Part shown: positions 20,482 through 51,241 of the stretch, piece after piece
How positions within the stretch are numbered: position 1 is the first letter of the stretch
Layout: each line of letters opens with the position of its first letter
Assembly (NCBI GenBank): GCA_030609325.1
Contig: JAUWCL010000013.1
Span: 1 to 64,000 of the forward strand
Source of the DNA: Candidatus Krumholzibacteriota bacterium
GTDB lineage: Bacteria > Krumholzibacteriota > Krumholzibacteriia > Krumholzibacteriales > Krumholzibacteriaceae
Direction of reading: 5' to 3'
Length of the DNA: 64,000 nt
The notes under the pieces: model-generated
The model's database searches: none
What the model was told of the DNA's origin: nothing
Seen by the model: only the letters and a program-made list of their open reading frames with translations
Position numbers and translations under genes: made by a program

Positions 20482-20509
20482 TTGACACTGTGGGGTGAAG
20501 TGGGATAAA
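20482..20509 (+). promoter_or_regulatory. promoter of the dcw (mraZ) operon
   Basis: A perfect -35 TTGACA (20482-20487) is followed after 16 bp by GATAAA (20504-20509); with a 17-bp spacer the hexamer is ATAAAG. The next ~30 kb of cell-wall and division genes have no comparable promoter, so this probably drives the cluster. The MraZ array starts inside the spacer and covers the -10. Confidence 0.65.
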
Positions 20510-20525
20510 GTGGGGCGAAATGGAG
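20490..20525 (+). promoter_or_regulatory. MraZ box: GTGGG direct repeats at exact 10-bp spacing
   Basis: GTGGG occurs at 20490-20494, 20500-20504 and 20510-20514, with a degraded fourth copy (ATGGAG) at 20520-20525. In E. coli and mycoplasmas MraZ binds three or more such repeats in front of its own operon. Here the repeats overlap the promoter hexamers, so MraZ binding should repress by blocking RNA polymerase. Confidence 0.85.
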
Positions 20526-20624: not shown

Positions 20625-21059
20625 ATGCAGAACTTCCTTGGAAATTTCGAATGTACGATCGATGTGAAGGGCCGCCTCATGGTCCCGGCGAAGTTCAGGC
20701 ATCTCGTGCCGGAAGTATCGGCAGGCATGTACGTGATATCGATGGGCAAGGAACGGTGCCTCAATCTCTATCCGGTCAACGAATGGAACGAGGTCGTCGT
20801 CAGCAAACTGCACGAGCTTCCTCCGGGTCTGGAGAAGAGGAACTATATAAGGTTCTACAGCAAGAAATCAAGGACGCTCAACCTCGACAAGTCAGGCCGG
20901 ATCGCGATTCCGTCTGCGATGCTCGAGGTGCTGGGCGGCCCGAAGAGGGTAATGGTCGTCGGAGTCCTTAATTACATCGAGGTATGGTCGATCGAGGACT
21001 ACGAGAAGATCAGCCGTGAAGCGGAAGATACCTTCCGCGACGGAAACTGGGAATACTAG
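20625..21059 (+). CDS. mraZ: MraZ, AbrB-fold transcriptional regulator of the dcw cluster
   Basis: 144 residues with the two tandem SpoVT-AbrB-like MraZ repeats. Repeat one carries NFECTIDVKGRLMVPAKFR and repeat two TLNLDKSGRIAIPSAML, including the DKxGR..IP core of each half. MraZ is a ring-shaped DNA-binding protein that binds GTGGG repeats before its own gene. That array is present at 20490-20525. The ATG follows GGAGAG directly upstream. Length is normal (E. coli 152). Confidence 0.96.
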   Translation: MQNFLGNFECTIDVKGRLMVPAKFRHLVPEVSAGMYVISMGKERCLNLYPVNEWNEVVVSKLHELPPGLEKRNYIRFYSKKSRTLNLDKSGRIAIPSAMLEVLGGPKRVMVVGVLNYIEVWSIEDYEKISREAEDTFRDGNWEY

Positions 21060-21076: not shown

Positions 21077-21478
21077 ATGAGAGTCTACCGTACCGAACGC
21101 GACGGCATAGAGGTCCTGAGGATCTCAGGCATCATCGACAGCAGCGATGCCGATATGCTCGTCAGCCACATCGGTTCGGACTCGATCGCATCGGGCGGAT
21201 GCTGCATCCTCGATTTCGAAGGTGTCCGTCATGCCGACTACAGGGTATTCCAGTCACTCGAAAGGCTGATCGGCAGGAGCCCCGGGGTTATCTTCAGCGG
21301 ATTCAACGACTATCTCCTCAGTATCTTCGCTTTCGCAAGCAGTACGAAGACAGCCCCCGTTTTTTCCGACTGGAGGAAGGCCTTCAGGTATCTGAAGGTC
21401 GAAAGGGTAAAGCTGGGCGTGTACGCAGCCGGACAGCCGGCGGCGGGAGACAGCCCGCCGGAGGTGGACGGCAGGTGA
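21077..21478 (+). CDS. STAS-like domain protein inside the dcw operon
   Basis: 133 residues; residues about 1-110 follow the STAS (anti-sigma antagonist) pattern. Strands are IEVLRISGIID and GGCCILDFEGV, a helix follows RVFQSLERLIG, a strand is GVIFSGF, and the last helix is WRKAFRYLKVE. The usual D-S-S/T-G turn carrying the phospho-serine reads D-Y-R-V, so kinase control by phosphorylation at that site looks impossible. The last 20 residues are a Pro/Gly-rich tail. It sits between mraZ and rsmH, where these genes are normally adjacent, 17 nt after mraZ and overlapping rsmH by 4 nt. Function unknown; a role as a protein-interaction module in division control is inference. Confidence 0.7.
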   Translation: MRVYRTERDGIEVLRISGIIDSSDADMLVSHIGSDSIASGGCCILDFEGVRHADYRVFQSLERLIGRSPGVIFSGFNDYLLSIFAFASSTKTAPVFSDWRKAFRYLKVERVKLGVYAAGQPAAGDSPPEVDGR

Positions 21479-22386
21479 TACATACGCCTGTCCTGGTCGA
21501 TGAGGTCGTGAGGTTTCTGATGACAGGAAGGGAAGGGACATACATCGACGGAACGGTCGGGACGGGCGGGCACGCCGAGGCGATCCTCGAGGCGGGCGGC
21601 GAGGGTGTCGGGCTCGTCGGAATCGACCGGGACCCTAAGGCCCTGGCGGTCGCCGCCGAAAGGCTCAAGAAGTTCGGTGACCGCGTCAGGCTCGTTCGAG
21701 GCAATTTCTCTGACATATCGAAGCATCTGGACGGCGAGAGGTGTGAGGGAGCCCTTCTCGATCTCGGCATCTCGTCCCTCCAGATAGCCGACGGGGACCG
21801 CGGATTCAGCTATCTCGAGGACGGCCCGCTGGATATGGCGATGGGGCCGGATGACGGAGACGTCCAGGACCTGCTCGATACGGTCTCCGAACGGGAACTG
21901 GCGGGAATAATACGCGAATACGGAGAAGAGCGCAGAAGCCGGGCGATCGCCCGAGAGATCGTCGGGGAACGGTCCGGTGGACGCATAGAGCGTACGGCAA
22001 GGCTGAGGGCGGCGATCGAAAGGGTCGCACCCGCGAGGGACGCTGTCTCGACTCTCGCCCGAGTCTTTCAGGCGCTGAGAATCTGGGCGAACGGGGAGCT
22101 CGAAGCGCTCACGGCCTTTCTTCCCACGGCCCTCGAGCTCTGCACGCCGGGCGGAAGACTCGTCCTGATCAGTTACCACTCGCTCGAGGACAGGATAGTG
22201 AAGAGATTCTTTCGGGCCGAGGAAAAGGGCTGCACCTGCCCTTCCGATTTTCCGGAATGTGTCTGCGGAAAGGAACCCCGGTTGAGGGTCATCACCAGGC
22301 GGCCCGTCGTCCCCGGTGAGGAAGAGATATCGGAGAATCCAAGGGCGCGAAGCGCCAGGCTGCGTGCTGCTGAACGGCTGGCGTAA
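21475..22386 (+). CDS. rsmH: 16S rRNA (cytosine1402-N4)-methyltransferase RsmH (MraW)
   Basis: 303 residues. The protein starts at GTG 21475 (GTGA overlap with the STAS gene, GGAGG at 21460-21464). It begins IHTPVLVDEVV, the standard RsmH N-terminus. The SAM-binding loop is GTVGTGGHAEAIL, and ALLDLGISSLQ, LDMAMGP, VFQALRIWANGELEAL and LISYHSLEDRIVKRFF are all diagnostic. It methylates C1402 of 16S rRNA. It is the usual neighbour of mraZ in dcw clusters. Confidence 0.97.
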   Translation: MIHTPVLVDEVVRFLMTGREGTYIDGTVGTGGHAEAILEAGGEGVGLVGIDRDPKALAVAAERLKKFGDRVRLVRGNFSDISKHLDGERCEGALLDLGISSLQIADGDRGFSYLEDGPLDMAMGPDDGDVQDLLDTVSERELAGIIREYGEERRSRAIAREIVGERSGGRIERTARLRAAIERVAPARDAVSTLARVFQALRIWANGELEALTAFLPTALELCTPGGRLVLISYHSLEDRIVKRFFRAEEKGCTCPSDFPECVCGKEPRLRVITRRPVVPGEEEISENPRARSARLRAAERLA

Positions 22387-22439: not shown

Positions 22440-22868
22440 ATGAAAGCAGGACACGAATATATCGATTATCTGTCGATGATGGTGAAAAGGGCCCTCGAAG
22501 GAAAGATGGGACCGTTCAACTTTCTGATCATACTGGGATTCTTTTCGAGCCTCGTACTTCTCCATATCTCGCTGCACGTGCATCTCGACGGGATCTCGAC
22601 GCAGATCGAGGAGGGAACGAGACTGAAGCAGTCGCTCGAGGACGAGAAGAACCGCCTGATGTCGCGCAGGAACGAACTCGTATCGGCCGACAGGATAATC
22701 CCCCTGGCGAAAGCCGCCGGAATGCACGCGGGAACGCCGGACCAGATACACAGGGTCGCCTATTGCGAGCCCGGTAAGATGACAGATAGAGACAGAGCCC
22801 GTTGGGTCCTCAGGGGTGTGGAGGGCGGGATCCCCTCCACACCGCCAGGAGTACCGGAGAGCAGATGA
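22440..22868 (+). CDS. ftsL: FtsL-like division protein
   Basis: 142 residues. One membrane helix (FNLIILGFFSSLVLLHIS region, residues about 26-45) is followed by a leucine-zipper-like coiled coil (STQIEEGTRLKQSLEDEKNR) and the region ADRIIPLAKAAGMHAGTPDQ, which matches the FtsL/DivIC pattern. Sequence conservation in FtsL is low, so position between rsmH and ftsI carries weight. It would form the FtsQLB periplasmic complex. The 53-nt gap before it contains a GC-rich inverted repeat (CGCCCGC 22391-22397 with GCGGGCG 22417-22423). The gene ends in an ATGA overlap with ftsI. Confidence 0.85.
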   Translation: MKAGHEYIDYLSMMVKRALEGKMGPFNFLIILGFFSSLVLLHISLHVHLDGISTQIEEGTRLKQSLEDEKNRLMSRRNELVSADRIIPLAKAAGMHAGTPDQIHRVAYCEPGKMTDRDRARWVLRGVEGGIPSTPPGVPESR

Positions 22869-37326: not shown

Positions 37327-38961
37327 TTGTCGTTCTGGGGAAGAATATTCGGAGTGGAGAAGAACCCCGAGTACGAGCGCGGTATCAGGTACTTTAACGA
37401 GGGCAGGTACGATGAGGCTGTCGAGACGCTCGAAAAGGCGATCGAATCTCTCGGTCCCGGCGACCCGACCTATGCCCTCGGGATGTTCTATGCCGCTGAG
37501 GCTCACGTACACCTCGGGACGGTCCGCTTTCACGCGGGTGACCTCGACGCTGCGTTCGAGCATTTCTCGATAGCTGTCAGGGAGAATCCCACATACCCCG
37601 ATCTCTACTATCGCATGGGTGTGATCCACCATCAACGCGGAGAGCTCGATGAGTCGCTGGAGATGCTCGGAAGGGCGATCGACCTCAACGAGAGTTATTT
37701 CGAAGCGGTGTGCTTTCTCGGTATCGTGCTGTACGAGCTGGGAAAAAAGGAAGACGCCGACGCCTCGTTCAAACGCGCTCTCGAGCTGGGAGCCGACAAT
37801 CCCGGTCCGATAAGCAAGTTCCTCAGCGATCACATCACCGGAAAGGCGACCGAGATCCCCCCGCTGGCCAGACTCAGGGAGATCATGTACACCGATACCG
37901 ATTTCGATTCCCTGATTCGGGAGGGAGTGGAGTCGTACAACACCGGCCATTACGACAGGGCCGTGGAGCTCTTAAACGAGGCGGCAGGACTACATCCCGA
38001 CTACGCCGACGTGCGCTTCAAGCTCGGCCTCTCGATGCTCCGGCACGGAGACCACGAGCAGGCGAGAGCACAGCTCCTCGAGGCGCTGAGGATCAACGAA
38101 CAATATACGGAGGCCCGCTTCTACCTGGGAGTCTCGTATCTCGACGAGAAGCTCTACAGGGAAGCGCTGCCCCACTTCGAACGGGCCGTCCTCGAGAAAC
38201 CGGTATACGCCGACCTCCAGTGCTATCTCGGCTTGACGTATTTCTATATCGGTGAGCTGAAGAAGGCGCGCGCAGTCCTCGACAGGACCCTCGAGATTTC
38301 CCCCGGCTACGCGAAGGCCAGGTACTATTACGGACTGCTGCTCTATGCGATGGGAGAGAAGAAGGACGCCGTGGAGTACCTCTCCGGAGGGATCCCCGAT
38401 CTCGACAGGCCCGGTGCGGCGAATGTCAACCTGGCGCTCGTTCATCTCAAGGAGGGACACCTCGAGGAGGCGATGAACGCGCTCAGAGAAGTCCTTGAGG
38501 CGGGAGGTGAGAGCGCCGACGTCCTCTATTTCCTCGGCGAGGTCTACATGAGGATGGACCGCCCGGGTGAGGCTGAGGAGTTCTTCAGGCGGTCTCTCGA
38601 GATCAACCCTTCCTTCCTTCGGGCGCGAGAGAAACTCGCCGTGCTCATGGTCCGCAGGGAGGATTACGGAGGGGCGGAGGAGATATTGGGAAAGAACGGC
38701 GAGGACTTCGCCGACATATACAAGATCATGGGTGACATCAAGTATTTCCGCGGCGAGATCGACGCCGCCGAGGATCTGTACCGCAGAAGCCTGGACGTTA
38801 ACTCCGAATACAGCGAGGCGGGGATCTCGCTCGCCCTGACCCTGCGCCAGAAGGGCAGGGAGGAGGAGGCGGTGAAACTGCTCGACAAGATACTCGAGAT
38901 CGAGCCCGAGAACGTCTTCGCGCGAAATCTCGTCGGACGCGGGCTGCTCGACATCGAGTAA
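37327..38961 (+). CDS. TPR-repeat protein downstream of ftsZ
   Basis: 544 residues built almost wholly of TPR units (about 12), for example NEGRYDEAVETLEKAIE, GELDESLEMLGRAIDLNE, NTGHYDRAVELLNEAAGLHPD, REALPHFERAVLEKP and RPGEAEEFFRRSLEINPS. There is no signal peptide, so it is probably cytoplasmic. The N-terminal SFWGRIFG may be a short membrane-touching amphipathic segment. TTG 37327 follows AAGGAGGGAG. It lies 24 nt after ftsZ in the same operon, suggesting a scaffold role in division or envelope growth, which is inference. Confidence 0.85.
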   Translation: MSFWGRIFGVEKNPEYERGIRYFNEGRYDEAVETLEKAIESLGPGDPTYALGMFYAAEAHVHLGTVRFHAGDLDAAFEHFSIAVRENPTYPDLYYRMGVIHHQRGELDESLEMLGRAIDLNESYFEAVCFLGIVLYELGKKEDADASFKRALELGADNPGPISKFLSDHITGKATEIPPLARLREIMYTDTDFDSLIREGVESYNTGHYDRAVELLNEAAGLHPDYADVRFKLGLSMLRHGDHEQARAQLLEALRINEQYTEARFYLGVSYLDEKLYREALPHFERAVLEKPVYADLQCYLGLTYFYIGELKKARAVLDRTLEISPGYAKARYYYGLLLYAMGEKKDAVEYLSGGIPDLDRPGAANVNLALVHLKEGHLEEAMNALREVLEAGGESADVLYFLGEVYMRMDRPGEAEEFFRRSLEINPSFLRAREKLAVLMVRREDYGGAEEILGKNGEDFADIYKIMGDIKYFRGEIDAAEDLYRRSLDVNSEYSEAGISLALTLRQKGREEEAVKLLDKILEIEPENVFARNLVGRGLLDIE

Positions 38962-43598: not shown

Positions 43599-44186
43599 AT
43601 GATCGTCACCTGTGACGGATGCGAGACAAAGTACATGCTCGGGGACGAGAAGGTGCCCACAGCGGGAATCAGGGTCAGGTGCCCCAAGTGCCGGTTCGTA
43701 TGGAGACTGACCCCGCCTCCGGTGACTATTGACCCCACGCTCGAGATAACGACCAACGAATACGCGACGGGTGTTCCGCTCGCCGAAACACCGGCGGGAG
43801 GATGGAGTGCTACCGAACAGCACAGGGCGGCGGCTGTCATAACGCAGCCTGAACCCGCCGTCATGAACGAAGAGGTCGAAATAACGGACGACGAGACGGC
43901 TGCGGCAGAGTCTCAGCCCGCCGTAGAGGAGACGCCGGAGATGAAGAAGAAGCGCGAGAGGGCAAAAAGGCTCGCACGCGTCTTCGTCAGCGACGTCCTC
44001 ATCTATAACCAGGAAAAGAGGGACCGCGGCCTCGCCGAAGGCGACCTGATGACCGTGCTCGGTTCCGAGATCAAGAAGGCCTGGGAGGCCTACAAGGATA
44101 AGATCGGTTCCGAAATGACCGAGTCAAGCGAGTACTTCCGTACGGCCCTCAACGAGATACTCGCCGATGGGCAGCAGGTATTCTGA
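43599..44186 (+). CDS. MJ0042-type zinc-ribbon protein
   Basis: 195 residues from ATG 43599 (GGAGG upstream at about 43584). The first 40 residues form the zinc ribbon CDGCETKY...RCPKCRFVW with two CxxC pairs. A low-complexity Pro/Thr/Glu linker follows (about 45-120), then a basic helical region KKKRERAKRLARVFVSDVLIYNQEK with a conserved-looking C-terminal helical domain to FRTALNEILADGQQVF. Similar proteins occur in myxobacteria and related groups. Function unknown. It overlaps the next gene by 20 nt, so the two products are probably functionally linked. Confidence 0.75.
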   Translation: MIVTCDGCETKYMLGDEKVPTAGIRVRCPKCRFVWRLTPPPVTIDPTLEITTNEYATGVPLAETPAGGWSATEQHRAAAVITQPEPAVMNEEVEITDDETAAAESQPAVEETPEMKKKRERAKRLARVFVSDVLIYNQEKRDRGLAEGDLMTVLGSEIKKAWEAYKDKIGSEMTESSEYFRTALNEILADGQQVF

Positions 44187-45018
44187 CGATACCCGGGCGG
44201 ATGTGAATAACCTTTCTTTGTATATCCTCAATCTGCAGCCCGCGCTGCATGACCAGTTCTTTGCCGAGGCACGCCTTCCCGAGGATGTCGAGATAAAGGT
44301 CTACAAGACCTATTCCCGATACCTCAAGAGGCTGCAGTCGGTGAAAGAGGGCAATCCGAACCTCCTCCTCTTTCTCCCATCGGGCAAGCTCGACCCGGGC
44401 AAGACGAGACAGCTCCGCCTTACGATGATCGAATCGCCGCTGTACATCGTGACGGGCGAATGCGACGAGAGGGCATACCTTACATATATCTCGATGGGAA
44501 TCGACGGAATCATCACCCCGCCTTTCAGAAGGGCCGACGTGCAGGGTGTGCTGCGCGGCGGGGCCGACCGCGGGATCCCCTTCCCGCGCAACAACGAACT
44601 GATCAGAGAGGGCCAGGTAAGGCTCGATTTCCTCGTTCCGAGCAAGCTCTCGCGCATACTCGGTGTGAACCGCCTTATCTCGTTTCTCTCGGCGGAGTTC
44701 GGGTTCCCGCCCGAGGAGAGCCGTGTCAATCTCCCCATGGTCGTCGACGAGGCGCTCAGCAACGCGATAGTCCACGGAAACCGGTCGGACGAGAATCTCA
44801 AGGTGCACGTCCGCATCTATATCAGCAGCAGACGCATACGCATCCGGATCGAGGACCAGGGAGAGGGGTTCATCCACGAGGACGTGGAGGACCCGACCGA
44901 GAAGGAAAACATCTACAAGGGGTCTGGACGGGGGATCTATCTGCTCAAGGAACTGATGGATTCGGTCGAGTTCAAAAAGGGCGGCAGGCTGATCGAGCTC
45001 GAGAAACTCAACGAATGA
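44167..45018 (+). CDS. pseudo-receiver fused to an RsbW/SpoIIAB-like HATPase domain
   Basis: 283 residues. Residues about 15-135 follow the response-regulator fold, including SPLYIVTGECDERAYLTYISMG and GIDGIITPPFRRADV. The Asp pair and phospho-acceptor Asp are missing (NLLLFLPSG at strand 3), and the conserved Lys is Pro in TPPF. Residues about 155-283 are a serine-kinase-type ATPase domain: N box VVDEALSNAIVHGN, G1 DQGEGF, G2 GSGRGIYLLKELMD. RsbW-like proteins phosphorylate STAS partners or bind sigma factors. No sigma factor or STAS gene is adjacent; a STAS-like gene is at 21077. Overlaps the zinc-ribbon gene by 20 nt. Confidence 0.8.
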   Translation: MGSRYSDDTRADVNNLSLYILNLQPALHDQFFAEARLPEDVEIKVYKTYSRYLKRLQSVKEGNPNLLLFLPSGKLDPGKTRQLRLTMIESPLYIVTGECDERAYLTYISMGIDGIITPPFRRADVQGVLRGGADRGIPFPRNNELIREGQVRLDFLVPSKLSRILGVNRLISFLSAEFGFPPEESRVNLPMVVDEALSNAIVHGNRSDENLKVHVRIYISSRRIRIRIEDQGEGFIHEDVEDPTEKENIYKGSGRGIYLLKELMDSVEFKKGGRLIELEKLNE

Positions 45019-49741: not shown

Positions 49742-50083
49742 CGAGTACCTGAAGAAGGGACCGAACCTCCCCTCGACAGTAAAATTGTAACGTGCAGTTT
49801 ACGTCGCCCTCTCTCAATTTCGGGAGACGGCGTTTTTCAAGACCCCCGAGATCCTTCCCAACTTGCCAGATCACAACGGTTTATAAATAGCTACAGCAGT
49901 AATTCCATGGCACGCTCCTTGCGCTCCCGTTTTCTTGCCGGGGTTGGCGCTTTTCTGGCTGAATCAAGAAGTGAACACCCTAGCTCTAGTGACGTTTAGC
50001 CTGTTCCGGATTCTGCTTCCTTGTCTGTGCACCAGGTGAGCGGGACGGGAGCCCGCCCCGGCTTTTTCAAGGAGTGGCTCAAA
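49742..50083 (+). other. intergenic region and leader of the MglA-like gene
   Basis: There is no gene in these 342 bases. The left end holds the terminator at 49805-49837. TTTATAAATAG near 49880 is a possible -10 region. Just before the ribosome site AAGGAG, a GCGGG/CCCGC stem (50040-50056) may form in the mRNA leader. Nothing else recognised. Confidence 0.6.
49805..49837 (+). terminator. intrinsic terminator after the lipoprotein gene
   Basis: CGCCCTCTC (49805-49813) pairs with GAGACGGCG (49824-49832), with one C-C mismatch and a 10-nt loop, followed directly by five T (49833-49837). This is a standard rho-independent layout. Confidence 0.72.
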
Positions 50084-51241
50084 ATGGCTGTCTACAATTA
50101 CGCCGGCGGAGAAGTAAACATAAAGATAGTATATTACGGCCCCGGACTCAGCGGGAAGACGACGAACCTCGAATATATGTATTCGAAGCTCCCGCGGGAG
50201 AACAAGGGCAAGATGATCTCGATGAAGACCCGGACCGACAGGACGCTCTTCTTCGATTTCCTTCCGATCGAGGTCGGGGAACTGGGCAGCCTCAAGGTAA
50301 GGTTCCTGCTCTACACCGTTCCGGGACAGGTCTACTACAACGCGACGAGGAAGCTCGTGCTCAAGGGCGTGGACGCCCTCGTGTTTGTGGCGGATTCGTC
50401 TCCAGACAGGCTCGGCGATGACAGGGAGAGCCTCGACAACCTCGAGGAGAACCTCAACGAGATCGGAATGTCGCTCTCCGGTACTCCATGGGTGATGCAG
50501 TACAACAAGAGGGACGTCCCGGGATGCATGAAGAAAAAGATGCTCGAGAAGGAGCTCAATACACGGAATGTCCCGTCGTTCGAGGCGGTTGCGACAGATG
50601 GCAGGGGCGTATACGAGACATTCGAGGGGATTGCGAAACTGGTCTTCAAGAGGCTCAGGCACGAGCTCAACGACAAGAAGGCCGGAAATGACGACAGTAG
50701 GGACAGCGAACCCGGCGGCGGACCGGTCGACGTGGAGGTCGTCGCGCAGGGTACTTCAACGATAATTAACTCAGAGGCAGGCGAGAGCGAGACTTCAGGT
50801 TACGCAGAGGAGAGAGAAGAGGAGCACGAGTCTGTCTCTGAGTTTGTAGATCACATGCTGAAGGAAGACGCGGACTTGGCCGAATCGGTCAAGGACCTCG
50901 GAATGGAGAGGGAAGGGTACGAGGAATACGGGCACATGGTCGAGCTCGGAGACAACAACAACGGATCGGCCGGGGAAGAGGCCGAGGGTGAAGCGAGTGT
51001 GGCGGTGGCGGAGAAGGAAGAGGACGAGGAGAAAAAGAAAAAAGAGTTCATAAACGATCCGCTCGTGAAGTTTGCCGGGGAAAAGCCCGAGACGGCCGGG
51101 GACGCGGCGCCCGGTCCCGCCGAGGAGACCGAGGAACGCCCCGCCAAGATGGTAACAGTCCCGGTCGAGCTCACCGAGGAGGAGATACGCAACGAGGTCC
51201 CGGTCAAGATCATACTTGACATAAAGGTCCATTCAGGCTGA
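50084..51241 (+). CDS. MglA-like Ras-family GTPase with a long acidic C-terminal tail
   Basis: 385 residues from ATG 50084 (AAGGAG at 50069-50074). Residues 1-195 match bacterial MglA: IVYYGPGLSGKTTN (P-loop), RTLFFDFLPIEVG, the switch YTVPGQVYYNATR, NKRD (base recognition) and VATDGRGVYETF. MglA sets cell polarity in Myxococcus and Thermus, normally with the GAP MglB. Known MglA ends near residue 195. Here about 190 more residues follow, highly acidic with low-complexity stretches (EDEEKKKKEF) and a predicted short structured end (VTVPVELTEEEIRNEVPVKI). No mglB-like gene is visible in the window. Confidence 0.88.
   Translation: MAVYNYAGGEVNIKIVYYGPGLSGKTTNLEYMYSKLPRENKGKMISMKTRTDRTLFFDFLPIEVGELGSLKVRFLLYTVPGQVYYNATRKLVLKGVDALVFVADSSPDRLGDDRESLDNLEENLNEIGMSLSGTPWVMQYNKRDVPGCMKKKMLEKELNTRNVPSFEAVATDGRGVYETFEGIAKLVFKRLRHELNDKKAGNDDSRDSEPGGGPVDVEVVAQGTSTIINSEAGESETSGYAEEREEEHESVSEFVDHMLKEDADLAESVKDLGMEREGYEEYGHMVELGDNNNGSAGEEAEGEASVAVAEKEEDEEKKKKEFINDPLVKFAGEKPETAGDAAPGPAEETEERPAKMVTVPVELTEEEIRNEVPVKIILDIKVHSG

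Follow-up and report, generated by a model that had tools for sequence, protein, structure and literature searches.

Few junctions in bacterial genomes are as stable as that between mraZ and rsmH; in E. coli K-12 only 1 nt separates these two genes at the head of the dcw cluster. STAS proteins are known from other settings, such as the anti-sigma factor antagonists SpoIIAA and RsbV and the stressosome protein RsbS. The loops beta3-alpha2 and beta4-alpha3 border the partner-binding face of these proteins, and the serine that is phosphorylated in SpoIIAA lies in the first of them. MlaB, the STAS subunit of the MlaFEDB transporter, is a stable binder and not an established phospho-switch; contact with its partner is made via the helical face, and the residue at the phosphosite lies close to the middle of the interface (PMC7367683).

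In the window, as the whole 64-kb stretch of DNA analysed here is called, mraZ and rsmH flank a real open reading frame, provisionally named dcw-STAS (Table 1). The nearest named relatives of the genome concerned are Candidatus Krumholzibacteriota MAGs (JAUWMD, DAOVNN). A preliminary description of this DNA had reported a STAS-like gene of 133 codons inserted between mraZ and rsmH and overlapping rsmH by 4 nt, and all of these details were found as described; the end of the gene, with its TGA stop at 21476-21478, overlaps the GTG start of rsmH by 4 nt. This overlap is confined to the closest relatives, while in other members of the window's own family (f1; the other families of the phylum in the genome set are f2-f8) ~8-25 nt lie between the end of the gene and the inferred start of rsmH. 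The mraZ product scored 92.1 bits against TIGR00242, slightly under the cut-off of 98.35, and the ftsL-like gene beside rsmH is kept in relatives. Elsewhere in the window, a TPR-repeat protein is encoded immediately after ftsZ (37327-38961, +), and a small GTPase of Arf/MglA type, extended at its C-terminus by a long acidic stretch, is encoded at 50021-51241 (+; Arf E 7e-7).

Table 1. Features of the dcw-STAS locus, with positions counted from the first nucleotide of the window.
Feature	Position	Strand	Evidence or remark
Sigma-70-like promoter TTGACA-N18-TAAAGT upstream of mraZ	20482..20511	+	Consensus scan, 10/12 matches
Triple repeat resembling a MraZ box, GTGGG-N5-GTGGG-N5-GTGGG, which overlaps the promoter	20490..20514	+	Sole match in 64 kb
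mraZ	20625..21059	+	Pfam PF02381 MraZ, E 3.4e-25; NCBIfam TIGR00242, E 2.9e-26
dcw-STAS (provisional name), STAS-only, 133 aa, phosphosite absent	21077..21478	+	
Codons H52-A53-D54-Y55-R56-V57, loop beta3-alpha2	21230..21247	+	HMMER alignment to SpoIIAA 1th8_B
Codons G75-F76-N77-D78-Y79-L80, loop beta4-alpha3, second conserved motif	21299..21316	+	Y79 in 59/61
rsmH, GTG start (GTG at 21475)	21475..22386	+	TIGR00006, E 9.1e-89; 4-nt overlap with dcw-STAS
ftsL-like gene, next in dcw cluster	22440..22868	+	Weak FtsL profile matches, E 0.005

A search of 58 relatives revealed dcw-STAS in 19/19 other f1 genomes and gave weak matches in f5, and at the f1 and f5 loci examined the gene lay between mraZ and rsmH in each. 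A profile made from 30 sequences was run over 80 genomes of the phylum, in which mraZ and rsmH were also located; 67 pairs from these genomes had both genes on one contig and could be assessed. In 59/59 pairs from five families (f1, f3, f4, f5 and f6) a STAS-like gene in the same orientation occupied the gap, and such a constant site shows that the placement is not due to chance. The profile itself detected the gene in 20/20 pairs of f1, 2/2 of f3, 2/3 of f4, 31/31 of f5 and 1/3 of f6; the three gaps that it missed (L072, L075 and L076; 555-762 bp) each hold an ORF aligning over both conserved motifs. The remaining 8/8 pairs, from f2 (3) and f7 (5), have mraZ and rsmH adjacent with a gap of 63-129 bp. 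An insertion unique to this contig, which the preliminary description had said would speak against its proposal, is thus not what was found, and dcw-STAS is resident across most of the phylum Krumholzibacteriota.

One strong copy was present per genome, save in one probably mixed MAG. In this MAG (G001), contigs C34 and C86 (loci L011 and L041) carry two differing mraZ-dcw-STAS-rsmH copies, probably from two co-binned strains. The RsmH tree places f2 with or within f1, and for this reason the absence of the gene from f2 fits a loss; the deep placement of f7 is ambiguous, and both gain and loss fit there. Relocation of the gene within f2 was considered and rejected, the profile matches in that family being ordinary STAS proteins. 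A scan of contigs with one dcw-STAS protein as query matched only the three closest Krumholzibacteriota loci, no relatives were found in viral contigs and plasmids, and none of the anti-phage defence models gave a match. A literature search found no paper on a STAS gene within a dcw cluster.

Taken alone, the window protein matches Pfam STAS weakly (E 0.0052; 17 bits, below the cut-off of 22.6), and the assignment therefore rests on the family profile, hhalign and the predicted fold. Members from f3 and f4, one from f5 and one from f6 score over this cut-off, whereas another f6 member (L075) has no Pfam STAS match. Searched against the PDB, the family profile retrieved SpoIIAA and other anti-sigma antagonists (E 4e-4 to 5e-3), and hhalign aligned the f1 profile with ordinary STAS proteins encoded elsewhere in the window's genome (E 9e-8); the f1 profile also matched the f5 proteins (E 7e-8). 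AlphaFold predicted a STAS topology for the f1 protein (mean pLDDT 80.5; 64/133 residues at 90 or above) and for the f5 protein (mean pLDDT 79.7; 80/137 residues at 90 or above), with tails of low confidence in both. The core of the STAS superfamily (PF01740 / PF13466), beta1-beta2-alpha1-beta3-alpha2-beta4-alpha3, is present in these two models. Foldseek ranked SpoIIAA, TM1442, RsbS and RsbV first, followed by STAS domains of SLC26/SulP and, for the f5 model, also MlaB. The target TM of the best matches (SpoIIAA, RsbS, RsbV) ranged from 0.74 to 0.85, and RsbS 6jhk had the top query TM in the list (TM 0.73/0.82). Compared with the long STAS form, the f5 protein and MlaB are both missing the last strand and helix (PMC7367683). 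The fold of dcw-STAS is thus predicted to be STAS; the family profile, hhalign, AlphaFold and Foldseek agree with the initial STAS-like call, and SpoIIAA, the structure proposed at that time for comparison, is among the best Foldseek matches. A prediction other than STAS, named there as grounds for refutation, was thus not obtained.

In the HMMER alignment to SpoIIAA (1th8_B), D54-Y55-R56-V57 aligns with D-S-S-G, residue 55 taking the position of the phosphorylated serine. Among 61 dcw-STAS proteins, this position holds Tyr in 44, Phe in 12, Leu in 2, and Arg, Pro and Ile in 1 each, which gives Tyr or Phe in 56/61 and Ser or Thr in none; the f6 versions have no aromatic residue there. As a control, 8/8 STAS domains inspected in the window's own genome keep the serine, as S-S-x-G or N-S-T-G, and so do the next-best STAS paralogs elsewhere in the phylum in the alignments inspected. 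The loss is therefore fixed in, and specific to, the dcw-STAS family. With Ser/Thr absent in 61/61 proteins, this site cannot serve as a standard phospho-switch, which bears out what the D-Y-R-V sequence of the window had first suggested.

H52 and Y79, each found in 59/61 proteins, rank first and second in conservation among 109 columns, and their two loops are jointly more conserved than 4999/5000 random segment pairs. Because of this strong conservation, the loss of the phosphosite is not a matter of decay. The fixed motifs are H-x-[DN]-[YF]-R at the beta3-alpha2 tip and [SN]-D-Y-L where alpha3 begins. The preliminary description had suggested a fixed-state binding module, and the strongly conserved edge that such a module should possess has indeed been kept, while constitutive binding, like the link from division gene expression to a further signalling protein that was also suggested, is conjectural. 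dcw-STAS clearly illustrates how, in an entire phylum, the fold of a phospho-switch has become a fixed module. Two variants were observed. The diverged protein of G006 (L028) has lost H52, Y55 and Y79 although its ORF is open and in place, and it is possibly relaxed or repurposed; in G002 (L010), D-R-R stands for D-Y-R and a shifted stop extends the rsmH overlap to ~37 nt.

Between close relatives, dN/dS of dcw-STAS was 0.18, 0.42 and 0.22, compared with 0.17 and 0.10 for mraZ and 0.22, 0.18 and 0.14 for rsmH; it is under purifying selection that matches that on its neighbours or falls slightly short of it. Its pairwise distances correlate with those of RsmH over 37 genomes (r = 0.91; 0/999 permutations as high) and within f1 alone (r = 0.77). 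Together, these values indicate a functional gene inherited together with its neighbours. A chance ORF or assembly artefact was rejected on the basis of many independent genomes, including the single-contig G008 and G029, and of dN/dS of 0.18-0.42, and a recent horizontal insertion was rejected on the basis of the correlated distances.

Upstream of mraZ, the promoter scan returned 2 sites in the region against 0.5 expected, and the GTGGG triple repeat appeared in 0 of 100 shuffles. A triple repeat is located ~119-143 bp before mraZ in 14/19 f1 genomes and a double one in 2 more; one f2 genome also has the triple form, several genomes of f3 and f4 have the double form, and none was seen in triple form upstream in f5, f6 and f7. 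The repeat is presumably a form of the MraZ operator, which reportedly was described as a GTGGG repeat by Eraso et al. in 2014. No terminator-like site was found on the + strand between mraZ and rsmH. The promoter-overlapping repeat and the missing terminator suggest that in f1 dcw-STAS is probably co-transcribed under MraZ control.

These observations can be accommodated in one scheme. dcw-STAS would have joined the dcw operon early in the ancestry of Krumholzibacteriota. It has lost the phospho-switch of the SpoIIAA/RsbV type, an aromatic residue taking the place of the serine at the beta3-alpha2 tip. Both conserved loops could then form a permanently exposed docking edge, and the protein may act as a constitutive adaptor, as MlaB acts on MlaF. 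Information would be carried by the amount of the protein and not by phosphorylation, this amount being set by MraZ via the operon promoter. The likeliest partner would be a core protein of the same operon, in the first place MraZ or RsmH, which are the simplest candidates because they are its constant neighbours. For the operon itself dcw-STAS is dispensable, since f2, nested with or beside f1, lives without it.

The mechanism beyond the missing switch, including control by MraZ and the identity of the partner, is what we infer from sequences and models. We give about even chances to a non-switchable STAS adaptor in the dcw operon that is dosed by transcription, its partner and its constitutive binding being presumed. 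The further idea that dcw-STAS is a core part of the division operon throughout the phylum that has so far escaped description, binding MraZ (or RsmH) and thereby adjusting dcw transcription, is tentative and rather doubtful. To our knowledge, such STAS-based tuning has no counterpart in any studied dcw cluster, and the signal to which MraZ responds is, as far as we know, still unsettled in the field. In dcw-STAS there is now a concrete candidate through which MraZ or RsmH might receive a post-translational input.

Other functions have to be considered. The predicted fold is nearest to SpoIIAA, RsbS and RsbV, HATPase_c_2 proteins occur in 80/80 genomes, and the conserved loops lie at the edge that bears the phosphosite in SpoIIAA; dcw-STAS could accordingly be a locked anti-anti-sigma factor, always bound to a HATPase_c_2 kinase of the RsbW/SpoIIAB type and freeing the sigma factor upon dcw expression. 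However, both serines have given way to an aromatic residue and an arginine, altering the surface that SpoIIAB reads, and no HATPase (anti-sigma/kinase) gene lies directly beside dcw-STAS at the locus. The HATPase of the window that had been put forward as a partner along with MraZ and FtsZ (44167-45018, +; 283 aa, HATPase_c_2 at residues 176-278, N-terminal ~150 aa without a Pfam match) belongs to a conserved extended dcw neighbourhood; many genomes of f1, f2, f3, f4, f6 and f7 have a homolog at a distance of ~20-25 kb downstream of mraZ/rsmH. Its orthologs were found in f1, f2, f7 and f8, and weaker matches in f3, f4 and f6. This protein is disfavoured as the partner because it is present without dcw-STAS in f2 and f7, whereas f5 has dcw-STAS and no clear ortholog. 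We therefore consider a locked anti-anti-sigma factor unlikely. A protein in which kinase and antagonist domains are fused would be unusual, and one 1423-aa frame in the window's genome (G000:C33:9167-13075; L001, L002, L005) apparently combines HATPase_c_2 with three STAS domains; two STAS-only matches come after it. Frames of 1346-1493 aa that contain HATPase_c_2 were seen repeatedly in f1, f2 and f7.

A structural subunit comparable to MlaB, serving an ABC-type or other envelope NTPase complex and placed in the dcw cluster for co-expression only, would agree with the STAS-only, stably binding nature of MlaB and with the last strand and helix missing in MlaB and the f5 protein alike (PMC7367683). 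MlaB structures are also among the f5 Foldseek matches and among the weak sequence matches of the family profile. MlaB nevertheless keeps a Thr at the phosphosite (PMC7367683), where Ser/Thr occurs in 0/61 dcw-STAS proteins, and at the loci inspected no transporter or mla genes were seen beside dcw-STAS, its neighbours being dcw genes, which makes such a subunit quite unlikely. The cluster of H52, Y79 and D54 could alternatively bind a nucleotide or small molecule, so that the protein would pass this signal on to the operon or to the methylation of ribosomes. SpoIIAA binds GTP/ATP and its conserved loop was suggested as a phosphate site (PMC8256260), and the strict His/Tyr pair of dcw-STAS is situated at that edge; a protein-protein edge would, however, show equal conservation, and we see only a slim chance for a ligand sensor. 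The absence from f2 and f7 would suit a mere passenger of the operon with a role not tied to division, but one junction has been kept in five families over deep divergence and under purifying selection, and a passenger appears very improbable.

The non-switchable adaptor that we favour resembles SpoIIAA and RsbV in its predicted STAS fold, its single domain, its similar length and the lack of a membrane segment. It differs from them in having D-Y-R for D-S-S and so no phospho-serine, the beta3-alpha2 tip bearing Ser or Thr in 0/61 proteins, and in its location in the dcw operon and not beside an anti-sigma/kinase gene. RsbS, the STAS-only scaffold of the stressosome, is phosphorylated by RsbT at a serine absent from dcw-STAS, beside which no stressosome genes were seen. 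With MlaB it shares the STAS-only build and, in f5, the short C-terminus, but MlaB retains Thr52 at the phosphosite and has a different locus and partner; the Thr and the mla operon typical of that family are replaced by 0/61 Thr and by dcw neighbours. Compared with the canonical dcw start mraZ-rsmH-ftsL of E. coli, the locus has the same flanking gene order and likewise carries MraZ-box-like repeats upstream, whereas the narrow junction of E. coli is enlarged here by one gene. As expected of a dcw component, the gene lies beside mraZ and rsmH and in their orientation in 59/59 pairs from the five families. dcw-STAS represents a new STAS-only variant in which the predicted fold is kept, the phospho-switch is gone, and a new conserved edge is combined with a constant position at the start of the dcw cluster in most of the phylum.
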